A stretch of 37,796 nt of DNA. Source: an uncultured bacterium. Lineage in GTDB: Bacteria > Cyanobacteriota > Vampirovibrionia > Gastranaerophilales > Gastranaerophilaceae. Position 1 is the stretch's first letter. Each line of letters begins with the position of its first letter. The position numbers and the translations under genes were made by a program. The notes below the pieces were generated by a model. That model did not search any database. It saw only the letters and a program-made list of their open reading frames with translations, and was not told where the DNA came from. This document shows, one piece after another, positions 10,753-37,649 of the stretch. The stretch lies in assembly GCA_949291445.1 (NCBI GenBank), contig CASEVT010000120.1:1-37796 (forward strand), given 5' to 3'.

Positions 10753-11457
10753 TTATTTTCCGTAAGGCAGCAATCTGTAACCTCCGCCATAAATTGTATC
10801 TATATACTCTTTGCCATCAGAAATCTTTTTTATTTTCGAGCGCAAATGTCTAATATGTACACGTATCGTCTCAACATCATCACCGGGCGAATACCCCCAT
10901 ATCTCCTGCAAAAATTTTGCGGACGAAACCATGTTTTCGTGATTTTGAACTAACAAATTCAAAATGTCGTACTCTATCGGCGTAAGCTTCGCAATTTTAT
11001 CATTTATTTTAACAGAATACGTTTCCGGCAAAAGAGTTATATCTCCAACAGTCAACAGGTCTTTTTTTGTTAAAGATTCCGGCAAAGAATTTGTACGCTT
11101 CAAAAGTGCACGAACTCTTACCTTCAACTCTTCCATTTCAAACGGCTTGACCAGATAATCATCTACTCCTATGTCAAACCCCTTGACCTTATCTTCAAGC
11201 ATGTTCAAGGCTGTAAGCATTAAGATCGGAATATTTTTTGTCGATGAATATTCACGAATCCTTTTTGCTACTGTATAACCGTCTACATCCGGCATCATTA
11301 TGTCCAGTATTATTAAATCAGGTAGCTCCTGCTTCGCAAGAGCGTATCCTTGAATACCGTCTTGTGCACATAAAACCTCGTAACCGTTCAATTCAAGATT
11401 CACTTTCACAAGCTCGTTTATAGCTTCATCATCATCTATTACCAGTATCCTGTTCAT
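10753..11457 (-). CDS. OmpR-family response regulator, RpaA-like
   Basis: Two-component transcription factor. The receiver domain has the acidic pocket DDD near the N-terminus, the phospho-acceptor Asp in ILDIMMPDVDG and the conserved Lys in YLVKPF. The C-terminal winged helix ends in the DNA-recognition part ETIRVHIRHLRSKIKK and the wing GGGYRL. The phrases WGYSPGDDVETIRVHIRHLR and DKVKGFDIGVDDYLVKPF recall cyanobacterial RpaA from memory. ATG 11457 has AGGTG 6 nt upstream; an in-frame GTG at 11466 overlaps that site and is unlikely. No histidine kinase lies nearby, so it is an orphan regulator here. It is divergent from speD. Confidence 0.88.
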   Translation of the reverse strand: MNRILVIDDDEAINELVKVNLELNGYEVLCAQDGIQGYALAKQELPDLIILDIMMPDVDGYTVAKRIREYSSTKNIPILMLTALNMLEDKVKGFDIGVDDYLVKPFEMEELKVRVRALLKRTNSLPESLTKKDLLTVGDITLLPETYSVKINDKIAKLTPIEYDILNLLVQNHENMVSSAKFLQEIWGYSPGDDVETIRVHIRHLRSKIKKISDGKEYIDTIYGGGYRLLPYGK

Positions 11458-11699
11458 CAAATTCACCTGAAATTTTCTTTACTGCTTTTGTAGGTTGCAT
11501 ATTGCTTAAAAAAAGTTAACAATATAGTAACTTATAAAAAATCCTTTAGTACTTTATATATTATTATACATGAATTACGGAGGGATACAGATTATTTAGA
11601 AAATTTAAGACCTTTTAGCAAATATTATTTTTTTTAGATTTTTATAGTATTATGTTTTTGATTGTAAAAACTACACTGTTAGAAAAGGAGATAAACAAA

Positions 11700-15863: not shown

Positions 15864-15890
15864 TCAATTTTTTGACTTTTCTGCCGATAT
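15864..15890 (+). promoter_or_regulatory. Sigma-28 (FliA)-like promoter of the flagellar rod operon
   Basis: TCAATTTT (6 of 8 to TAAAGTTT), an 11-nt spacer, then GCCGATAT (7 of 8 to GCCGATAA), ending 37 nt before the first flagellar ATG. Spacing equals the enterobacterial FliA consensus. A weaker sigma-70 reading (TTGACT at 15872) overlaps it. Confidence 0.55.
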
Positions 15891-15927: not shown

Positions 15928-16623
15928 ATGAAGATAAAAGGCGGTATAGACTTCTTTGAAAACGGACTGACAACAAACGTCAGAGCAATGCATTTGCAGA
16001 CAGAAATTCTGGGGATTTTGAATGCAAACATAAACGGTTTTGACAAAGTAGGTTATCAAAGGAAAGATCCAGTTGTATCATCCTTTGCAGAATACATAGG
16101 AGTTCACGCTTTATCGACAGCAGTAAGTGATGAAGTGGGCAGAATTTCAACAACAAACAACCCGCTTGATTTAGCAATCGGCGGCAAAGGTTATTTTCAA
16201 TATTCTGGTCCGGACGGAACTAAATTAACAAGAGACGGAAGATTCAAACTTGACAGAAACGGTTATCTGTTGACCGGTGAGAATTTCAACGTACTGTCTA
16301 ACAACGGAATGCCTGTCAAACTTCCTTTCGCTCCTGAAAAACTTGAAGACATAAAAATCAACAGAAATGGTGATTTGAGTGTCTTAAATAAAAAAACAGG
16401 AAAATTAGAATACGTAGCGACATTAGCGGTTGTTACCGACCAAGGCGTTGCAGTACTTGAACCAAATGTTAAACAAGGTTACAACGAATACTCAAACGTA
16501 TCTATGAATACAGAAGTTTTAGAGATTATTCCGGTAAAAAGGAATTTTGAAGCTAACAGACAGATGTTCATATTGCAAAACAATAACTTGTCAAAAGCAA
16601 TAAGTGAATTGGGTAAGACCTAA
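15928..16623 (+). CDS. flgF: Flagellar rod/hook-basal body protein, FlgF-like
   Basis: 231-residue rod-family protein. The N-terminal helix (about 10-45, with the ANINGFDKVGYQ turn) and C-terminal helix (about 195-231) form the usual paired amphipathic ends. Residues 79-115 carry the FlgE/F/G central signature (NPLDLAIGGKGYF, then TRDGRFKLDRNGYL). There is no Sec signal, as expected for export by the flagellar type III apparatus. The C-terminus (VSMNTEVLEIIPVKRNFEANRQ) is closer to FlgF than FlgG, but the F/G naming is uncertain. GAGGT precedes ATG 15928. First gene of the rod operon, 14 nt before the next. Confidence 0.8.
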   Translation: MKIKGGIDFFENGLTTNVRAMHLQTEILGILNANINGFDKVGYQRKDPVVSSFAEYIGVHALSTAVSDEVGRISTTNNPLDLAIGGKGYFQYSGPDGTKLTRDGRFKLDRNGYLLTGENFNVLSNNGMPVKLPFAPEKLEDIKINRNGDLSVLNKKTGKLEYVATLAVVTDQGVAVLEPNVKQGYNEYSNVSMNTEVLEIIPVKRNFEANRQMFILQNNNLSKAISELGKT

Positions 16624-16637
16624 TAGGAAGGTAGTTT

Positions 16638-17351
16638 ATGTACAATTTACAAGGTTTAATAAGACGCGGAATAAACAATACAAATATGCAGTTTGAACGA
16701 CTGGGTTATATCTCGAACAACATAGGAAACATGAACACAACGGGATATAAATCGGTCAGATTCGAACAAACACTTGATGAAAACGGTTATCTGGACGGTG
16801 TAGTAAGATATGATTACTCTACCGGTTCAACAATGAGGACAAAACGGCTTTTAGATGTTGCTCTGACGGGCCCCGGATTTATTCCGGTAACTTCACCCAA
16901 TGGTGACGTTAAATATACCAGAGACGGTTCATTTAAAGTTAACAATGAGGGTTATCTGGTGACAAATGATGGATATCTGGTCGGTGACGGAATTAAAATC
17001 CCCGCAAACTACGAAAATTTAAGAATAAAAAAAGATGGTACGGTAATTATGCTTTCAAGAAGCAAGGATACGTCAGAAACCATCGGAAGAATACCGGTTG
17101 TGCAATTTCAGAATCCGGAAGGTTTGAAATCAGCAGAATATAACAAAGTGGTTGCGACAGATGAATCAGGACCGCCAATGCTTATAAAAGACCACCAATA
17201 TATTGCACAGGGCAATCTTGAGAGCGCAAATACAAATTATATCGGCAATGTTAATGAAGTCCTGAGATTGAATGCATCAATGATTGCAAGTACAAGATTA
17301 ATAAAAGTTGTTGATGAAATGTACCAAAAAGCCATAAACCTGACTCAATAA
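16638..17351 (+). CDS. flgG: Flagellar distal rod protein, FlgG-like
   Basis: 237-residue paralogue of the preceding gene. The N-terminal motif ISNNIGNMNTTGYKS matches the FlgG/FlgE turn (ANNLAN..T.G.K). The central signature is LLDVALTGPGFI ... YTRDGSFKVNNEGYLVT (71-107). The C-terminal QGNLESANTNYIGNVNEVLRL parallels the QGxxExSNVN segment of FlgG. It is shorter than E. coli FlgG (260). There is no signal peptide. Ribosome site AAGG 7-9 nt before ATG 16638. It is co-transcribed with the other rod genes; hook, ring and motor genes are not in the window. Confidence 0.85.
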   Translation: MYNLQGLIRRGINNTNMQFERLGYISNNIGNMNTTGYKSVRFEQTLDENGYLDGVVRYDYSTGSTMRTKRLLDVALTGPGFIPVTSPNGDVKYTRDGSFKVNNEGYLVTNDGYLVGDGIKIPANYENLRIKKDGTVIMLSRSKDTSETIGRIPVVQFQNPEGLKSAEYNKVVATDESGPPMLIKDHQYIAQGNLESANTNYIGNVNEVLRLNASMIASTRLIKVVDEMYQKAINLTQ

Positions 17352-17390
17352 CAGATAAGTAACAATAAATAGAAAATCAAAGGTAAAAAA

Positions 17391-17735
17391 ATGTATACAC
17401 CAAAGGACCCAATAGTAAAAGTAAATTTAATGATGGATCTGGTCTCACAAAGACAAAGAGCCCTGAGTATGAACCTTGCGAACATAGACACACCGGATTA
17501 TGTAAGAAAAGACATAAGCTTTGATCAGTACTTGGGTACAATGAACAATCCATTGGAAACTGAACTTTCAATAAAACTTGGTCCATCAGGATTAATCGAT
17601 GAGCAAGATGTCGGAGTTGATCCAACCTATGAATTGGAAGAAATGCAAAAAATGTCCATTATGTATACGGTTGCAACAAGAAGAATGTCGAATATAATAA
17701 CACAAATGAAAACTGTTGTTAACGTCGGAAAGTAA
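17391..17735 (+). CDS. flgB: Flagellar proximal rod protein FlgB
   Basis: 114 residues, slightly shorter than the usual 130-140. The N-terminal rod motif is SMNLANIDTPDYVRKDISF (about residues 25-43), the invariant ANxxTPxYxxxDxxF turn of FlgB. The C-terminal helix contains MYTVATRRMSNIITQMKTVV, which packs against the N-terminal helix in the rod. The middle domain is reduced to about 40 residues, accounting for the short length. AAAGG lies 8 nt before ATG 17391. It precedes flgC by 17 nt with a good GGAGG site between them. Confidence 0.92.
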   Translation: MYTPKDPIVKVNLMMDLVSQRQRALSMNLANIDTPDYVRKDISFDQYLGTMNNPLETELSIKLGPSGLIDEQDVGVDPTYELEEMQKMSIMYTVATRRMSNIITQMKTVVNVGK

Positions 17736-17752
17736 GCTGACGGAGGTGTAAA

Positions 17753-18196
17753 ATGAGTATTTTAGAAACAATGAGCATCGGACAAAGAAGTATAACTGTC
17801 CACGGAAAAAGAATTAAAGTCCACGCAAAAAATATTGCAAATATGGACACACCAAATTACGTCAGAAAAATACCGGTGCTCAACGCAACAGATGACATCT
17901 CATTTCACGGCTTGCTAAACGTTATGAAAGAGGATGTATTCGGAACAGGAACACTTCCGTTTTTACAAGGTGGAGTCGCATTCACAGGAATCGTTGAAGA
18001 TCCGACACTTGGTGAAAGATTGTATAAACCAGGACACCCCGACGCAGATGCAAACGGATATGTCAGAGCATCGAACGTTAACCCAATGGTAGATATAGCA
18101 GACGCAAACATTGCTCAAAGAGCATATGAAGCTAACCTTGCAGTAATTTCAATAGCAAAGAGCATGGCGCAAAGAGCAGTTGAGATAGGACGATAG
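17753..18196 (+). CDS. flgC: Flagellar proximal rod protein FlgC
   Basis: 147 residues. The N-terminal motif is KNIANMDTPNYVRK, and the C-terminal family motif includes NVNPMVDIADANIAQRAYEANL and ends MAQRAVEIGR. The length is normal for FlgC (130-150). There is no Sec signal. CGGAGGTG lies 6 nt before ATG 17753. The LT gene begins 3 nt after its stop, so the transglycosylase is translated within the rod operon. Confidence 0.93.
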   Translation: MSILETMSIGQRSITVHGKRIKVHAKNIANMDTPNYVRKIPVLNATDDISFHGLLNVMKEDVFGTGTLPFLQGGVAFTGIVEDPTLGERLYKPGHPDADANGYVRASNVNPMVDIADANIAQRAYEANLAVISIAKSMAQRAVEIGR

Positions 18197-18199
18197 TAA

Positions 18200-18874
18200 A
18201 TGTTTTCACCCAAAATTCAAGCTTTCATAGATGACGGAGGAAAAGAAGCTGCACTTCAAAGAGCGCAGCAGCTTAAAAATCACGTTGCAAGTATTGAACG
18301 ACAGCTCAACCCTGAACTTGTTAAAAAGACTGACAAGCCAAGCTTTTCTGAAATGCTTAAAGAAAGCAGAGGTGGCATTCCCGCTTTTAGAGCAGAAAGC
18401 AAAAATCCATTCCAATCTGCAACAAAATTGACTAACTCAGTAGATATAAAAGCAACTAATCCGACATCAAATATTAAACTGAGCCAAAACCCGTCTCGAG
18501 TCCAGCTGTTAAATATGATTTCACAAATTAGCAAAAAATATGGAGTTGACGAAAAACTTGTTCAAGCAGTCATCAAACAAGAATCAGGCTTCAACCCAAA
18601 AGCTGTTTCACACTGCGGTGCCCAAGGTTTAATGCAGCTTATGCCGGCAACAGCAAAAGGACTGGGCGTTAAAGATCCGATGAACCCGGTTCAAAACGTA
18701 GATGGCGGTGTTCGTCACTTAAAGGGTCTGCTTGCAAGATACAACGGCAACCTTGTTCTCGCTCTTGCAGCATATAACGCCGGTGGCGGCAACGTCGATA
18801 AGTACGGCGGCGTTCCACCATTTAAAGAAACTCAAAACTACGTACGCAGTATTTTAGCTAATTACTTAGGATAA
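18200..18874 (+). CDS. Lytic transglycosylase without Sec signal, in the flagellar rod operon
   Basis: 224 residues. The C-terminal SLT domain (about 100-224) has the catalytic Glu in KQESGFNP (E128), then GLMQLMP (143-149) and AAYNAG (190-195). The N-terminal 100 residues are polar, disordered-looking and hold no signal peptide or membrane helix. Enclosed between flgC and fliE, it is a good candidate for the wall-cutting enzyme that lets the rod pass peptidoglycan, exported by the flagellar apparatus like FlgJ. It differs from FlgJ, whose muramidase domain belongs to another family. The C-terminus closely resembles the secreted enzyme encoded at 21508-22131. Confidence 0.88.
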
Positions 18875-18884
18875 GGTAATAAAT

Positions 18885-19232
18885 ATGATCGAAAAGAAAT
18901 TTGCACCGAATGTAAACTTATTTGAAAGAATACAACCAACAAAGTTAAATACAGGTATAAGCTATGACATGTCTCCAATGCGTCTAAACAGAATGGAGAA
19001 ACTTGAAACCAATGACTTCAAGGCTGTTTTTTCGGGTCTAATCGAAAACTTTAATCAGGAACTCAATGCCCCGGATCAACTATTGAAAGATGCAATGCAA
19101 GAAAGTTCCAATGTCGATATTCATGACGTTATGACAGCAATGGCAAAAGCCGAGGTCGGTGTTACTGTTGCAACGAATATTACAACCAAAATAGTTCAAG
19201 CTTACGACAAAATTATGCAAATACAGCTCTAA
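18885..19232 (+). CDS. fliE: Flagellar hook-basal body adaptor protein FliE
   Basis: 115 residues. The C-terminal half is the FliE signature: SSNVDIHDVMTAMAKAEVGV, followed by a helix ending in TTKIVQAYDKIMQIQL. This helix connects the MS ring to the proximal rod. The N-terminal 40 residues are variable. It is the last gene of the rod operon, 10 nt after the transglycosylase, with AAGG before ATG 18885. Its stop is 21 nt from the convergent FAD-oxidoreductase stop, with no clear terminator between. FliF, FliG and export genes are not in the window. Confidence 0.92.
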   Translation: MIEKKFAPNVNLFERIQPTKLNTGISYDMSPMRLNRMEKLETNDFKAVFSGLIENFNQELNAPDQLLKDAMQESSNVDIHDVMTAMAKAEVGVTVATNITTKIVQAYDKIMQIQL

Positions 19233-32516: not shown

Positions 32517-32572
32517 AATACAACAAATGTATACAAAAATGTAACAAAGTTGTAATAAACTCGAATAAGAAT

Positions 32573-32599
32573 TAAAGTTTTTATATATTATGCCGATAA
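32573..32599 (+). promoter_or_regulatory. Perfect sigma-28 (FliA) consensus promoter of the glycine-rich operon
   Basis: TAAAGTTT (-35), an 11-nt AT-rich spacer and GCCGATAA (-10): 16 of 16 consensus positions of the enterobacterial FliA promoter with the exact spacing. The -10 ends 28 nt before the ATG of the first glycine-rich prepilin gene, leaving a leader of about 20 nt. It lies in a non-coding gap. Confidence 0.8.
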
Positions 32600-32627
32600 A
32601 TAAATTATAGGACAAAGAGGGTGTACT

Positions 32628-34004
32628 ATGCTCGAATTTTGTATAAAAGATAAAAAACAAAGAGGCTTTTCACTGGCAGAAGCGCTTATAACGCTGCTAA
32701 TAATTTGTATAGTAGTAGCATTAACAATGAATATGATGAGCAAAAACAGAAAGTTCAAAAAGAAAACAGGTGAACAAACAACGTGGGCGTGCACGATAGA
32801 TCCTACAACAGGTGAACATAAAGTAATAACAGATGATCCACAAACAGGAGAATCAGACGGCGAGTCTTGCACATTTATTCCACCCCAAAATGTAAGTGAA
32901 TTTACAGTTCTAGCAATAGGCGGAGGCGGCGGCGGAGCATCAGGTTCGTCATCAACATATATGGCACAAACCAGAGAAGGATTTATAAATTTTGTCCCAC
33001 CAACAACAGGTGACTATTACATAATAGTAGTAGGCGGCGGCGGAGGCGGCGGCGGCAAAAACTGCGGAGAAGATGCAGCACAAGGCGGCGGCTCAGGTGG
33101 AGTTGTGGCCGGAGTATTTGAATTAAGAGGAGCAACGACCTATACACTAACAGCAGGAAAAGGCGGAGCCGGCGGCAAGAAAGCAAAGACAGGCGGACAA
33201 GGAGAACAAAGTTCATTCACCGGAGGCAATTTAAATTTAGTAGCCGGTGGAGGTAAGGCAGGCTACGGAAAATACAAGAAAGGTTTATTTAGCTGCAGCA
33301 AAGGATATGGAGACGGAAAAGGCGGAACATATTCAGGCGGACCCGGTTCCAACGGAGAAGATGCGCCGTATGGAGGTTTTGGTCACGCCCCCGGATATGT
33401 ATGCAGAGATGTAAACAGAACTTGTCTAATAGCAGGACTTGCAGATAGAATCGGACCGACAGTACAAGATATAGGCAGAGGCGGACTTGGAGCACGAGGA
33501 TCCACAAGCGGTGGAGAAGGAATGCCCGGATTTGTTAAAGCAGTATATAACCCAATATACAGCGGAGAAGGCGGACGTTCAGGAATGCAAGCATATTACA
33601 CCTACAAAAGAAGTCCCGGAAGAACCAAAGTAGTAATAGGCAAAGGCGGGAAAGGTGCAACAAACGAAAACATGAACGGAACAGCCGGAGAAGCTTCAAG
33701 ATTCGGAGATCGAGTTATAGCGGCAGGTGGAGCCGGAGGATATAAAGAATACAAGAATGGCTCACTTGATGACCCAGATCCCAAAGTAGAAGGCGGAGAT
33801 GGTGGATACTCCCCAGCGCCAAGAACATTAGAAGACTATGATTTTTCAATAGAACCGTCCGGAGGTCTTACAACAGCCAACCCAGCACTTGACGGAATGA
33901 CAATAAATGCCCCAGGAGCCGGAGGCGGCGGAGGTGGAGCAAATGGTACCGGCTGGGGTAAAGGCGGTGACGGTGCAAATGGAATGGTATTAATAACCTG
34001 GTAA
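32628..34004 (+). CDS. Glycine-rich protein with prepilin signal, paralogue 1
   Basis: 458 residues. The prepilin signal cleaves at G13/F14 with Glu18 at +5 (RG/FSLAEALITLLII), followed by a hydrophobic helix to about 36. Then comes a stalk with two conserved Cys: C55 in WACTIDPTTGE and C81 in SCTFIPP. The rest is Gly modules starting with EFTVLAIGGGGGG (91-103) and TGDYYIIVVGGGGGGGG (127-143), with an AYYTYKR...VVIGKGGKGA block, and ends ANGMVLITW. Far longer than ordinary pilins (130-200). Likely exported through a type IV pilus or type II secretion-like system, then surface or fibre protein. GAGGGTG precedes ATG 32628. First gene of the three-gene operon. Confidence 0.85.
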   Translation: MLEFCIKDKKQRGFSLAEALITLLIICIVVALTMNMMSKNRKFKKKTGEQTTWACTIDPTTGEHKVITDDPQTGESDGESCTFIPPQNVSEFTVLAIGGGGGGASGSSSTYMAQTREGFINFVPPTTGDYYIIVVGGGGGGGGKNCGEDAAQGGGSGGVVAGVFELRGATTYTLTAGKGGAGGKKAKTGGQGEQSSFTGGNLNLVAGGGKAGYGKYKKGLFSCSKGYGDGKGGTYSGGPGSNGEDAPYGGFGHAPGYVCRDVNRTCLIAGLADRIGPTVQDIGRGGLGARGSTSGGEGMPGFVKAVYNPIYSGEGGRSGMQAYYTYKRSPGRTKVVIGKGGKGATNENMNGTAGEASRFGDRVIAAGGAGGYKEYKNGSLDDPDPKVEGGDGGYSPAPRTLEDYDFSIEPSGGLTTANPALDGMTINAPGAGGGGGGANGTGWGKGGDGANGMVLITW

Positions 34005-34016
34005 CAAGGAATAATT

Positions 34017-35870
34017 ATGAAAAAGATAAAAAAAGGTTTTAGTTTAGCAGAAGCTCTAATGGCACTATTAATAGTATCATTGATAGTGTCTGCAATGATA
34101 CCCGTTTTGACGAGAAAACACAGAGATGTCGGAATTCATGGAAAATGGGAATGTACATTAAATGAAAATGGTCAGCACGTATCAAGAATGCTTGTAGACG
34201 GGAAATTTACAGATTTTGAAATAAACGGAGACGGAACATCGTGCAGTTTTGCACCACCAGCCGGAGCAGAAAACTTTACGGTAAAAGCAATAGGTGGTGG
34301 TGGTTCAGGAGCAGGCGGTATTCCCGGTGAAACAACAGATACAGAGAAGATCGCAGAATCCCAAGCCCTCCCATTTACAGCACCTTTTACAGGTAAGTTT
34401 AGCATCACCCTGCAAGGTGGAGGTGGTGGCGGTGGCGGCATGAAATGTGGCAATGCGCAAAACTACGTTGCAGAGAATTTTCTTGCATTCGACACAAGCC
34501 ACAGAGGCAGCTATGAGAACCCCGGCTACATAGATGCACCTGACCCGTCATTTGATTACAGTGTGCTGTACTCAAACGATAAATCAAAATACTCACCATA
34601 TTTATCAGGCAGCTATGACTACTGTTTCAGCCAGCCCGGTTGGACCAATGCAGAATCCGATGATGATAAATGCTGGAACTACCCGGGTCAAGGTGGCGGA
34701 GCCGGAGAAACTAAGACATTTACCATTGATGCCCACAAGGGTGATCTGATAACTATAGTACCGGCAAGAGAAGGTCTCCCCGGAGCAGAAGGTGGTCCCG
34801 GCGGGAACGGAGATGAAGCTTGCTATATACCACCATCAGGCAGCAAAGTTTGTGCCTCAGGCGGTGGCGGTGGTTATAACAGGTACAGAATAAATGTATC
34901 ATACAATAACGTGCCGGTTTGCAGACACAATATGATAAAATCGACTTGCTTTTCGCACTGGGGTCCCCCATATGAATGCGGAAGTGACGTATGCGACAAT
35001 GAAGGGAATTGTGTTTATGAATCACAAACCTGTCAAGATCCGGTATACGTGCCTTGTATAGTCGAAGGACCTTGTATAAAAGAAACAAGAAATAACTACT
35101 TTAGCATCCCCACTTGCATAAATGAAACAGGGGGCGGCTCACGCATCGGAATGATGGCATACCAGGCGGATCTAATCAACTCTGCCGTTGAAAATGGAGA
35201 TGAAATTGGCGGAGCAGGCTCAGGTGGAAATGGTGCAAACAGAGGTACCATAACCGAGGATGCTGATACTGATCAAACAAATCCTGATGCCATATACAAC
35301 GGAGAAGGCGCCTCTGCAGGCGTAGCGGCACTAAAATATGTAACCTACTCAGGCGGAAGCGGAGGCCAAGCCGGCGGTTATGCATACTCAATGTTTAAAA
35401 AATTGCCAAGAGTAACTGATATAAAAATAGGCAGAGGCGGACATAGTGTTGGAATCAAAAGTGACGGCGAAAGAGGCGGTGACACAGAATTTGGTGATCT
35501 GCTCAAAGCAGCCGGCGGCAACGGCGGAAGAATTATGGCCAACATCCCTAACCTCGCAAAAGGAGAAACAAAAGCTGAAGGCAGCAATGGTGACCCCTCA
35601 CCGCTTGATTCAGGAATATTAAAAGGCTTACTAATTGCTTGGGGAGGTTTTACAACCCTTAACAACTCAGAACACGGATACGGAGCAATAACCTTTGCTC
35701 AGGGAATTGCGGCAAGTGACACACTCTCCAAACTAGCTGGTAAATTGTTTATAGGGTCAAAGAAAACAGAATATACCTATGGTGCCGGCGGAGGCGGAGG
35801 CGGAGGCATGGTCGGCAAAGCCGGAGACGGTGGTGCTGGCGCTCCAGGTGCAGTAATCATTGAATGGTAA
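34017..35870 (+). CDS. Glycine-rich protein with prepilin signal, paralogue 2
   Basis: 617 residues, the largest of the three. The signal cleaves at G7/F8 (KKG/FSLAEALMAL, Glu12 at +5). The two-Cys stalk is C46 in WECTLNENGQ and C76 in SCSFAPP. Gly modules begin NFTVKAIGGGG (87-96) and PFTGKFSITLQGGGGGGGG. A unique insert (about residues 267-370) carries 11 cysteines and resembles a secreted disulfide-rich module (VCDNEGNC, CQDPVYVPC, GPC). A conserved block FKKLPRVTDIKIGRGGHS follows, and the protein ends GAGAPGAVIIEW. AAGGA precedes ATG 34017, 12 nt after paralogue 1. Confidence 0.85.
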   Translation: MKKIKKGFSLAEALMALLIVSLIVSAMIPVLTRKHRDVGIHGKWECTLNENGQHVSRMLVDGKFTDFEINGDGTSCSFAPPAGAENFTVKAIGGGGSGAGGIPGETTDTEKIAESQALPFTAPFTGKFSITLQGGGGGGGGMKCGNAQNYVAENFLAFDTSHRGSYENPGYIDAPDPSFDYSVLYSNDKSKYSPYLSGSYDYCFSQPGWTNAESDDDKCWNYPGQGGGAGETKTFTIDAHKGDLITIVPAREGLPGAEGGPGGNGDEACYIPPSGSKVCASGGGGGYNRYRINVSYNNVPVCRHNMIKSTCFSHWGPPYECGSDVCDNEGNCVYESQTCQDPVYVPCIVEGPCIKETRNNYFSIPTCINETGGGSRIGMMAYQADLINSAVENGDEIGGAGSGGNGANRGTITEDADTDQTNPDAIYNGEGASAGVAALKYVTYSGGSGGQAGGYAYSMFKKLPRVTDIKIGRGGHSVGIKSDGERGGDTEFGDLLKAAGGNGGRIMANIPNLAKGETKAEGSNGDPSPLDSGILKGLLIAWGGFTTLNNSEHGYGAITFAQGIAASDTLSKLAGKLFIGSKKTEYTYGAGGGGGGGMVGKAGDGGAGAPGAVIIEW

Positions 35871-35881
35871 AGGAATAATAT

Positions 35882-37570
35882 ATGCTTAAACTAAATAAAT
35901 ACGGATTTTCAATAGCAGAAGCACTCGTGACTATGTTGATTATTGCACTCATAATTCTGATGACAATGCCAGTAATTACAAAACGTACACCAAAAGGCTC
36001 AGGCATAACAGGCAGATGGGAATGCAAACTTAATCCGGAAACAGGTCAGTACGAATCAATAACAACAATAATAGACAGAAAAACAGGTCAACCGGTGGCA
36101 GATGATCCGAGCAACCCGAAACAAGAATACGGAAGAGTTGCAGAAGACGGAAAATCTTGTATATTTACCCCCCCAAAAAGTGCAAGAAACTTCACAGTTA
36201 ACGTAATAGGCGGAGGCGGAGGCGGCGCAGCCGGAAGCGTTGCAGAAGATTATGCAGTAAAAGAATCAACGGCCGGCAGCTGGGCATTCGTGCCAAAATA
36301 TACAGGACTGTACAACATATTACTCATTGGTGGCGGCGGTGCAGGCGGTAGCACAGAGTGCAAATATGGACCAGCAGCAGACGGAGGTCTCGGCGGTGCA
36401 GCAGGTGGTGTTCTGGTTATGAAGGATTACCGACTTGAAAAAGGTAAAACTTACACAGTAATCGTAGGTGCCGGTGGAATTGGACCAATGGATGGATACG
36501 GTTCAAATGAAGGACACGGAAACCCTGGAGGCAACACAATGCTAAGACTTCCTACAGGAGGAGAACTTGTTGCAACTGGAGGCAGGGGCGGCTTTGGTGG
36601 AACCCACAAAGTACTTTTTGGAAAAGAATGCCAACCGACAGATGGATGGGAACTTCAAGGATTACCTGGCATTCCAATACTAAATAGAGATATGCAACAA
36701 TCTTTAAAAAGCACAAGTGATCCACGCTGGGGAGGCAATACCGCAAAACCGGGATATATATGCGAAAAAAATGGCAATGATGTTACTTGCGTTAATAATG
36801 AAGTTAAAGAACTCCTCTCATCATTTGCATCAAGTTATGTCGGTGCAGGCGGTTATGGAGCAATAAAAAATGATACCGACGGTTACAATGGACACGACGG
36901 CGCAGCTCTAATCTCTTTCTCAGGATTATACGCAGGAGGCGGCGGCAACGCAGGTACACATTTGTATAAGACCTTCAAAAAACTCCCTTCTGAAATCACC
37001 GTAAAAGTAGGTGCTGGCGGTATTGGCGGACTCAGAGAAAATGAAGACGGCAAAGCCGGTCAGGGCTCTGCTTTTGGTAATTTGGCAGTTGCCGGCGGTG
37101 GCTCAGGCGGCCGCGTAAGAAGCATTCTTGCACCTTCGGAAGCAAAAGGCTATGCAGAAGGCGGTAATGGCGGCGCTTCTCCATTAGGTGGTGTGCTTAG
37201 CGGCGGGCTGATTGACGGTAATAATTCAATGAACGGAATGAACGATGTCGATGTAAACAATGGCTATGCACAACTTGATGATTCAATATATGGTGCCGGC
37301 GGCGGCGGCGGCGCATCTAAAGATAAAAAAATCTGTGCAAAAAATACTACATCCGCTCTAAAACCTAAATCACTATATGAACTCCTCTTCCCTATGACTT
37401 ACGCTTCACAAAATACTGCTCCGGAAGATTACCCAGGAGAATGGTATGATAACGGCTGGGTACCCAGTACAGTTCCGCCTAAAACAGAGGATAATGACCT
37501 TAACTACACCGATTGTTGGGGTCGTGGAGGCCGTGGAGCGCCAGGTCTTGTTAGGGTTGAATGGAACTAA
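35882..37570 (+). CDS. Glycine-rich protein with prepilin signal, paralogue 3
   Basis: 562 residues. The signal cleaves at G8/F9 (KYG/FSIAEALVTM, Glu13 at +5). The two-Cys stalk is C48 in WECKLNPETGQ and C93 in SCIFTPP. Gly modules begin NFTVNVIGGGGGGA (103-116) and KYTGLYNILLIGGGGAGG; the conserved block KTFKKLPSEITVKVGAGGIG follows (near 365). It ends GRGAPGLVRVEWN, with one residue after the Trp that closes the other two. A longer linker with KNTTSALKPKS and an acidic stretch precedes the end. AAAGGA precedes ATG 35882, 11 nt after paralogue 2. Last gene of the operon. Confidence 0.85.
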   Translation: MLKLNKYGFSIAEALVTMLIIALIILMTMPVITKRTPKGSGITGRWECKLNPETGQYESITTIIDRKTGQPVADDPSNPKQEYGRVAEDGKSCIFTPPKSARNFTVNVIGGGGGGAAGSVAEDYAVKESTAGSWAFVPKYTGLYNILLIGGGGAGGSTECKYGPAADGGLGGAAGGVLVMKDYRLEKGKTYTVIVGAGGIGPMDGYGSNEGHGNPGGNTMLRLPTGGELVATGGRGGFGGTHKVLFGKECQPTDGWELQGLPGIPILNRDMQQSLKSTSDPRWGGNTAKPGYICEKNGNDVTCVNNEVKELLSSFASSYVGAGGYGAIKNDTDGYNGHDGAALISFSGLYAGGGGNAGTHLYKTFKKLPSEITVKVGAGGIGGLRENEDGKAGQGSAFGNLAVAGGGSGGRVRSILAPSEAKGYAEGGNGGASPLGGVLSGGLIDGNNSMNGMNDVDVNNGYAQLDDSIYGAGGGGGASKDKKICAKNTTSALKPKSLYELLFPMTYASQNTAPEDYPGEWYDNGWVPSTVPPKTEDNDLNYTDCWGRGGRGAPGLVRVEWN

Positions 37571-37587
37571 TACAAAATACTTTTTGA

Positions 37588-37649
37588 AAACCGGAATACG
37601 AATTTAAACAAAATAATAAATGTCAGTTTTTCGATTCCGGTTTATTTTT
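37588..37649 (+). terminator. Terminator of the glycine-rich operon
   Basis: AAACCGGAATACGAA pairs with TTCGATTCCGGTTT (one bulged A) around a long AT-rich loop, followed by ATTTTTA. It lies 18 nt after the last stop. Confidence 0.8.

Follow-up and report, generated by a model that had tools for sequence, protein, structure and literature searches.

A predicted FliA-type promoter with an upstream HLR1-like repeat ahead of prepilin-like genes in a gut-dwelling, non-photosynthetic relative of Cyanobacteria

Introduction

Among described promoters, those read by the flagellar sigma factor FliA (sigma-28) of E. coli come closest to the site analysed here. In the tar promoter (TAAAGTTTCCCCCCTCCTTGCCGATAAC; PMC4183435), for example, the -35 element, the -10 element and the spacing between them are identical to those of our site, and so is the core as a whole. 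FliA of E. coli also has targets outside the flagellum, as is the case here. Our locus differs from the E. coli promoters in its target, a predicted operon for a pilin-type fibre, in the presence of an HLR1-like repeat upstream, and in the retention of the sigma factor in unflagellated relatives.

For the control of pilins by a sigma factor, the nearest precedent is SigF of cyanobacteria, a group 3 sigma factor that controls type IV pilin genes (pilA) and motility (PMC2758279, PMC6495340). SigF promoters, however, read TAGGC / GGTAA and SigF groups with SigB of B. subtilis, not with RpoF of E. coli (PMC2758279, PMC6495340). Here, in contrast, both the promoter and the sigma factor are of the FliA type. 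With regard to the genes behind the promoter, the present locus can be compared with type IV minor-pilin tip complexes, in which several prepilin-type proteins with large ectodomains are likewise encoded in one operon. The ectodomains at our locus are distinct from these in being glycine-rich and phage-fibre/ALK-like, and any tip complex that they form is putative.

The upstream repeat has its counterpart in the HLR1 box, a light-response element which is bound by RpaB in photosynthetic cyanobacteria and has the consensus (G/T)TTACA(T/A)(T/A)NN(G/T)TTACA(T/A)(T/A) (PMC11633204). In cyanobacterial genes activated by RpaB this box is situated upstream of the core promoter (PMC6331805). The system described here shares with the cyanobacterial one (PMC6331805, PMC11633204) an RpaB equivalog, the repeat consensus, in reverse orientation, and the position upstream of the core promoter; it differs in that the hosts are non-photosynthetic and in that the boxes lie 17 nt before a FliA-type -35 element. 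That Melainabacteria possess homologues of RpaA, RpaB and NblS was pointed out in 2013, with the suggestion that these may serve a different function there (PMC3787301). A search of the open-access literature gave no earlier description of FliA targets or of HLR1 targets in Gastranaerophilales.

Here we describe a window (the whole stretch of DNA that was analysed, 37,796 nt in length) from the 1.78-Mb genome of an uncultured member of the Gastranaerophilaceae, hereafter the source genome. Our starting point was an earlier interpretation of the window made from its letters alone (the sequence-only reading), which proposed that a FliA promoter drives an operon of prepilin-like proteins.

The FliA-Type Site and Its Sigma Factor

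An exact match to the FliA consensus, TAAAGTTT-TTATATATTAT-GCCGATAA, occupies positions 32573-32599 of the forward strand, with 16 of 16 positions and the N11 spacing agreeing. Its -35-type element, TAAAGTTT (32573..32580, +), was assigned by consensus match and is kept in a congener and in genus g6, and its -10-type element, GCCGATAA (32592..32599, +), by consensus match and conservation. As the sequence-only reading had described, the site falls in a non-coding gap, which measures 111 nt (32517-32627) and separates a glycosyl hydrolase family 3 gene from the first of three prepilin-like genes, and it ends 28 nt short of the start codon (ATG, 32628). From base composition, 5e-5 exact matches to the FliA consensus are expected in the window. 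The position of the -10 element predicts a transcript start at approximately 32606, and AAAGAGGG (32614..32621, +) is, to judge from its letters, the likely ribosome-binding site.

A fliA gene, which the sequence-only reading had left to be looked for, is present in the source genome: a profile search for TIGR02479 returned 221.9 bits against a cut-off of 189.6. The protein aligns to E. coli FliA (6pmi) at 5e-48 and has kept the segments by which the latter recognizes the -10 and -35 elements (RIRGAxxDxxRSxDWVPRSxR, ESRVxQLHxQA). The site itself is also conserved. In a congener with 87% protein identity its core is kept at 16/16 positions while the flanks have diverged, and in seven genomes of genus g6 it recurs with at most one mismatch (15-16/16), located 35-36 nt upstream of the first gene in the homologous prepilin operon. 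Because a FliA gene is present, its product retains the DNA-binding segments and conservation of the site extends to other species and genera, 32573-32599 is, on this comparative sequence evidence, very likely a sigma-28 promoter.

The Prepilin-Like Genes and Their Products

The promoter faces three genes on the same strand, which encode proteins of 458 aa (gene 1, 32628..34004, +), 617 aa (gene 2, 34017..35870, +) and 562 aa (gene 3, 35882..37570, +). The intergenic gaps are 12 and 11 nt, and gene 3 is followed by a hairpin and a T-rich sequence (37588..37643, +; MFE -16.5, z -2.3), a probable operon terminator that was missed by a simple terminator scan restricted to loops of 3-8. The short gaps together with the hairpin make it plausible that the three genes form one operon.

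The three proteins are paralogues with 35-40% identity. All of them match PF21722 (Gly_rich_2) and all have a prepilin-like start, GFS(L/I)AEAL, so that their description as glycine-rich and prepilin-like holds, although to call them giant, as had been done, was an overstatement at these lengths. PF07963 (N_methyl) was passed by the gene 1 product only. For this protein, an AF2 model of moderate quality (mean pLDDT 73) has a pilin helix at residues 16-40 ahead of the glycine-rich ectodomain. A domain of the model resembles the fibre of cyanophage Pam3 (Z 15.2, rmsd 2.3 over 152 residues), the tail tip of Bxb1 (Z 12.1) and the glycine-rich domain of ALK (Z 10.4), which suggests that a pilus-type anchor carries ligand-binding heads, as far as the model can be relied upon. 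The prepilin-like proteins may thus serve in adhesion. The source genome also encodes a PilT-like ATPase (PF00437).

FliA-Type Sites in the Source Genome

The whole-genome scan proposed with the sequence-only reading yielded 15 sites of the form TAAAGTTT-N11-GCCGATAW when up to one mismatch was tolerated; the reversed pattern gave 0. When up to three mismatches are allowed the excess is absent (40/36 versus 35/40 in the control) and, therefore, only near-exact sites are meaningful. Within the window, a candidate at 15864, which precedes flagellar rod genes, was discarded as a chance-level match with 2-3 mismatches. The top sites of the genome are nearly all intergenic and upstream of a start codon, the strong ones mostly at a distance of 25-80 nt. 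Genes preceded by strong sites encode a flagellin, members of a family that we call SQAR, EF-hand-like proteins and small unknown proteins; in addition, the gene of a GAF/HD-domain protein has a FliA-type site with N12 spacing. Over 44 FliA-type sites we also observed a conserved AT-rich stretch, similar to ATATAATRTA, at +1 to +10 past GCCGATAW, perhaps the start region.

Members of the SQAR family (MGMAASQARFLGLTARK...; L031:6215-7240 on G000:C112, L025, L172 and L174-L203) occur in 60/60 genomes and 41/41 genera. The N-terminal 66 aa are 55-100% identical among the matches listed and are perhaps an export signal; the remainder of the protein is variable, and the source-genome member had no match in Pfam or NCBIfam. 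In flagellated as well as unflagellated groups, SQAR genes often carry TAAAGTTT, with N11 or N12 spacing, 30-51 nt upstream. Also an 86-aa protein (MSEN..I..PFG.N), for which no Pfam or NCBIfam match was obtained, has a FliA-type promoter in a flagellated as well as in an unflagellated genus (L029 in the source genome, L156 and L160 in genus g41).

The Upstream Repeat and Its Candidate Regulator

Upstream of the FliA-type promoter lies a direct repeat, TGTAAC-AAAGT-TGTAAT (32540..32556, +), which the sequence-only reading missed. It is an imperfect match to HLR1: the first half-site is located 33 nt before TAAAGTTT, one half is weaker, and the period is 11 bp, compared with 10 in strict HLR1, for which reason we designate the box HLR1-like rather than strict. 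The arrangement is not confined to the window. In a set of 44 non-redundant sites, TGTAAM...TGTAAM stands as a direct repeat at -33/-22 relative to TAAAGTTT (z 14.9 versus shuffles). The cyanobacterial HLR1, read as its reverse complement, corresponds to TGTAAM-N4-TGTWAM, which is found 17 nt 5' of many FliA-type promoters. Strict HLR1-type repeats number 24 in the source genome, against 4 in the control, and in 8 of the 24 the distance to a FliA-type -35 element downstream is precisely 17-18 nt, against an expectation of 2e-4. A search of 126 genomes for the composite TGTAAMNNWWTGTWAM-N16-19-TAAAGTT, a pattern that omits the GCCGATAW part, gave 468 occurrences versus 2 for the control; the composite is present in 114 of these genomes and in 39 of 41 genera, including 70 of the 77 unflagellated genomes. 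Strict HLR1-type repeats were also observed before genes that have no FliA-type site (L205, L207, L212 and others), among them a SQAR gene, so that the regulator may serve a second class of promoters.

The source genome encodes an RpaB equivalog (NF045944, 368.3 bits versus a cut-off of 330; G000:C47:1344-2033), and such a protein scores above the cut-off in 51 of 60 surveyed genomes, compared with 1 of 14 control genomes. The window itself encodes an OmpR-type response regulator (10753..11466, -) whose closest match is RpaA, the circadian regulator of cyanobacteria (PDB 9dvt, E 2e-77). Since the source genome has three OmpR-type regulators, the protein presumed to bind the repeat could also be this RpaA-like protein or the third one.

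Relation to the Flagellum and Other Explanations

The sequence-only reading had assigned the operon to the late flagellar regulon. In its pure form, this explanation holds that FlgM restrains FliA until the hook is complete, that the operon is then switched on together with flagellin, and that the upstream box is unimportant. It agrees with the presence of FliA and flagellins in the source genome, with a FliA-type site with one mismatch at one of these flagellins, and with related sites (TAAAGTAT/TCGATAT) 38-53 nt before the start of flagellins in g17, g33 and g39. The idea that flagellin genes share the motif is thus borne out for some of them, but only for some, and their cores vary; the core of the best flagellin site of the source genome is poorly conserved between congeners. 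A further point in favour is that the promoter before the prepilin operon is restricted to flagellated genera, as it was found in 9 of 20 flagellated versus 0 of 16 unflagellated genomes (p 0.002, uncorrected for phylogeny and with only two clades). Prepilin operons without a FliA-type promoter occur in 11 of the 20 flagellated genomes surveyed.

The distribution of the sigma factor and its sites, however, argues against a purely flagellar role. FliA scores above the cut-off in 276 of 288 genomes of the family, canonical FlhA in 112 of the 288, including the source genome, and flagellin was found in 50 of 126 genomes; FliA and the motif occur equally often in genera that lack canonical FlhA or flagellin. 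Genus medians of motif enrichment are 4.25 for flagellated and 4.40 for unflagellated genera (p 0.68), and we rejected at this level the notion that motif number tracks flagella; at the genome level there is an association (p 0.011) for which two rich genera are responsible. Non-flagellar genes carry sites in flagellated and unflagellated species alike: several targets of the source genome have counterparts in g41, an unflagellated genus, that are likewise preceded by the motif, namely the 86-aa protein, a SQAR protein, EF-hand-like proteins and the region before an arginyl-tRNA synthetase-like gene (named by eye). The promoter class, therefore, neither marks flagellar genes nor requires a flagellum. 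Furthermore, the upstream repeat is strongly conserved and the match before the flagellar rod genes of the window is at chance level. What stands of the flagellar assignment is the limitation of the prepilin-operon promoter to flagellated genera, whereas the enrichment of the motif irrespective of flagella and its many non-flagellar targets do not fit it, and we regard the purely late-flagellar explanation as unlikely.

Some further observations concern flagellar genes in the family. A second FlhA-like protein, which at approximately 705 bits does not reach the FlhA cut-off, occurs widely in the 288 genomes, those without flagellin included; it is a possible retained, flagellum-derived export system. 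The rod-type genes of the window (15928-19232; FlgF-like, FlgG-like, FlgB, FlgC, a transglycosylase and FliE), several of which fall below curated cut-offs, are possibly part of a divergent second system. One genome of genus g33 (G091) has 23 flagellin-domain matches, several of them in open frames of 600-1400 aa.

The conserved repeat could alternatively belong to a housekeeping sigma-70 promoter, with TTGTAA as the -35 and TAAAGT as the -10 element at 17 nt spacing, in which case the likeness of GCCGATAA to a FliA element would be incidental. The second half of the repeat does lie 17-18 nt before TAAAGT, and the g6 sequences read TTGACA-N17-TAAAGT. However, the conserved GCCGATAW and the N11/N12 spacing would be left unexplained, TAAAGT is poor as a -10 element, and the repeat is a two-copy box with a 10-11-bp period rather than one hexamer. 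The TTGTAA/TAAAGT pair is, moreover, below the limit of the promoter scan, and a sigma-70 scan of the 111-nt gap returned none on the + strand. We consider this explanation highly improbable. That another alternative sigma factor binds the site has only a slight chance of being correct, since FliA is the only match above the FliA/WhiG cut-off, its recognition segments match those of E. coli FliA and the site is identical to the consensus known from E. coli, even though the genome has several more sigma-70-family matches and the flagellin cores vary.

A Composite Promoter and Its Implications

The explanation that we prefer, with a probability of roughly three in four, is a sigma-28-dependent promoter that is assisted by RpaB and serves a pilus-type fibre whose receptor-binding heads are phage-fibre/ALK-like. 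RNA polymerase with the FliA-type sigma factor would read the promoter at 32573-32599, which would belong to the family-wide composite class. The HLR1-like repeat, centred approximately 60 nt before the transcript start, would be bound by a regulator of the OmpR type, for which the RpaB orthologue is the likeliest candidate, and this regulator, if the sign of its action is positive, as we presume, would aid the FliA holoenzyme. A single transcript would encode the three prepilin-like proteins, which a prepilin peptidase probably cleaves and which probably join a type IV-pilus-like fibre, either within it or at its tip, so placed that the glycine-rich heads may bind an external ligand. This composite RpaB/FliA-type architecture is more surprising than either the promoter or the flagellar-regulon reading.

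For the family as a whole, we think it fairly probable that the non-photosynthetic gut relatives of Cyanobacteria have wired RpaB, a regulator of light stress, and HLR1 to FliA-type promoters, and that the resulting regulon has outlived the flagellum and controls proteins that are secreted or lie at the surface, among which, in flagellated genera, are pilus-type fibres bearing receptor-binding heads. A flagellar sigma factor that has been retained across a gut-bacterial family in which the majority of the members surveyed have no canonical FlhA would thereby gain a predicted regulon. If true, this would also provide a function for the so far unexplained RpaB of Melainabacteria, and thus a testable answer to a question that has been open since 2013, namely what role RpaB, a protein of light and circadian control, plays in non-photosynthetic relatives of Cyanobacteria. 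For the organism from which the window derives, the prediction is that an adhesive pilus-like fibre would share its control with motility-related genes, which might amount to a host-contact switch.
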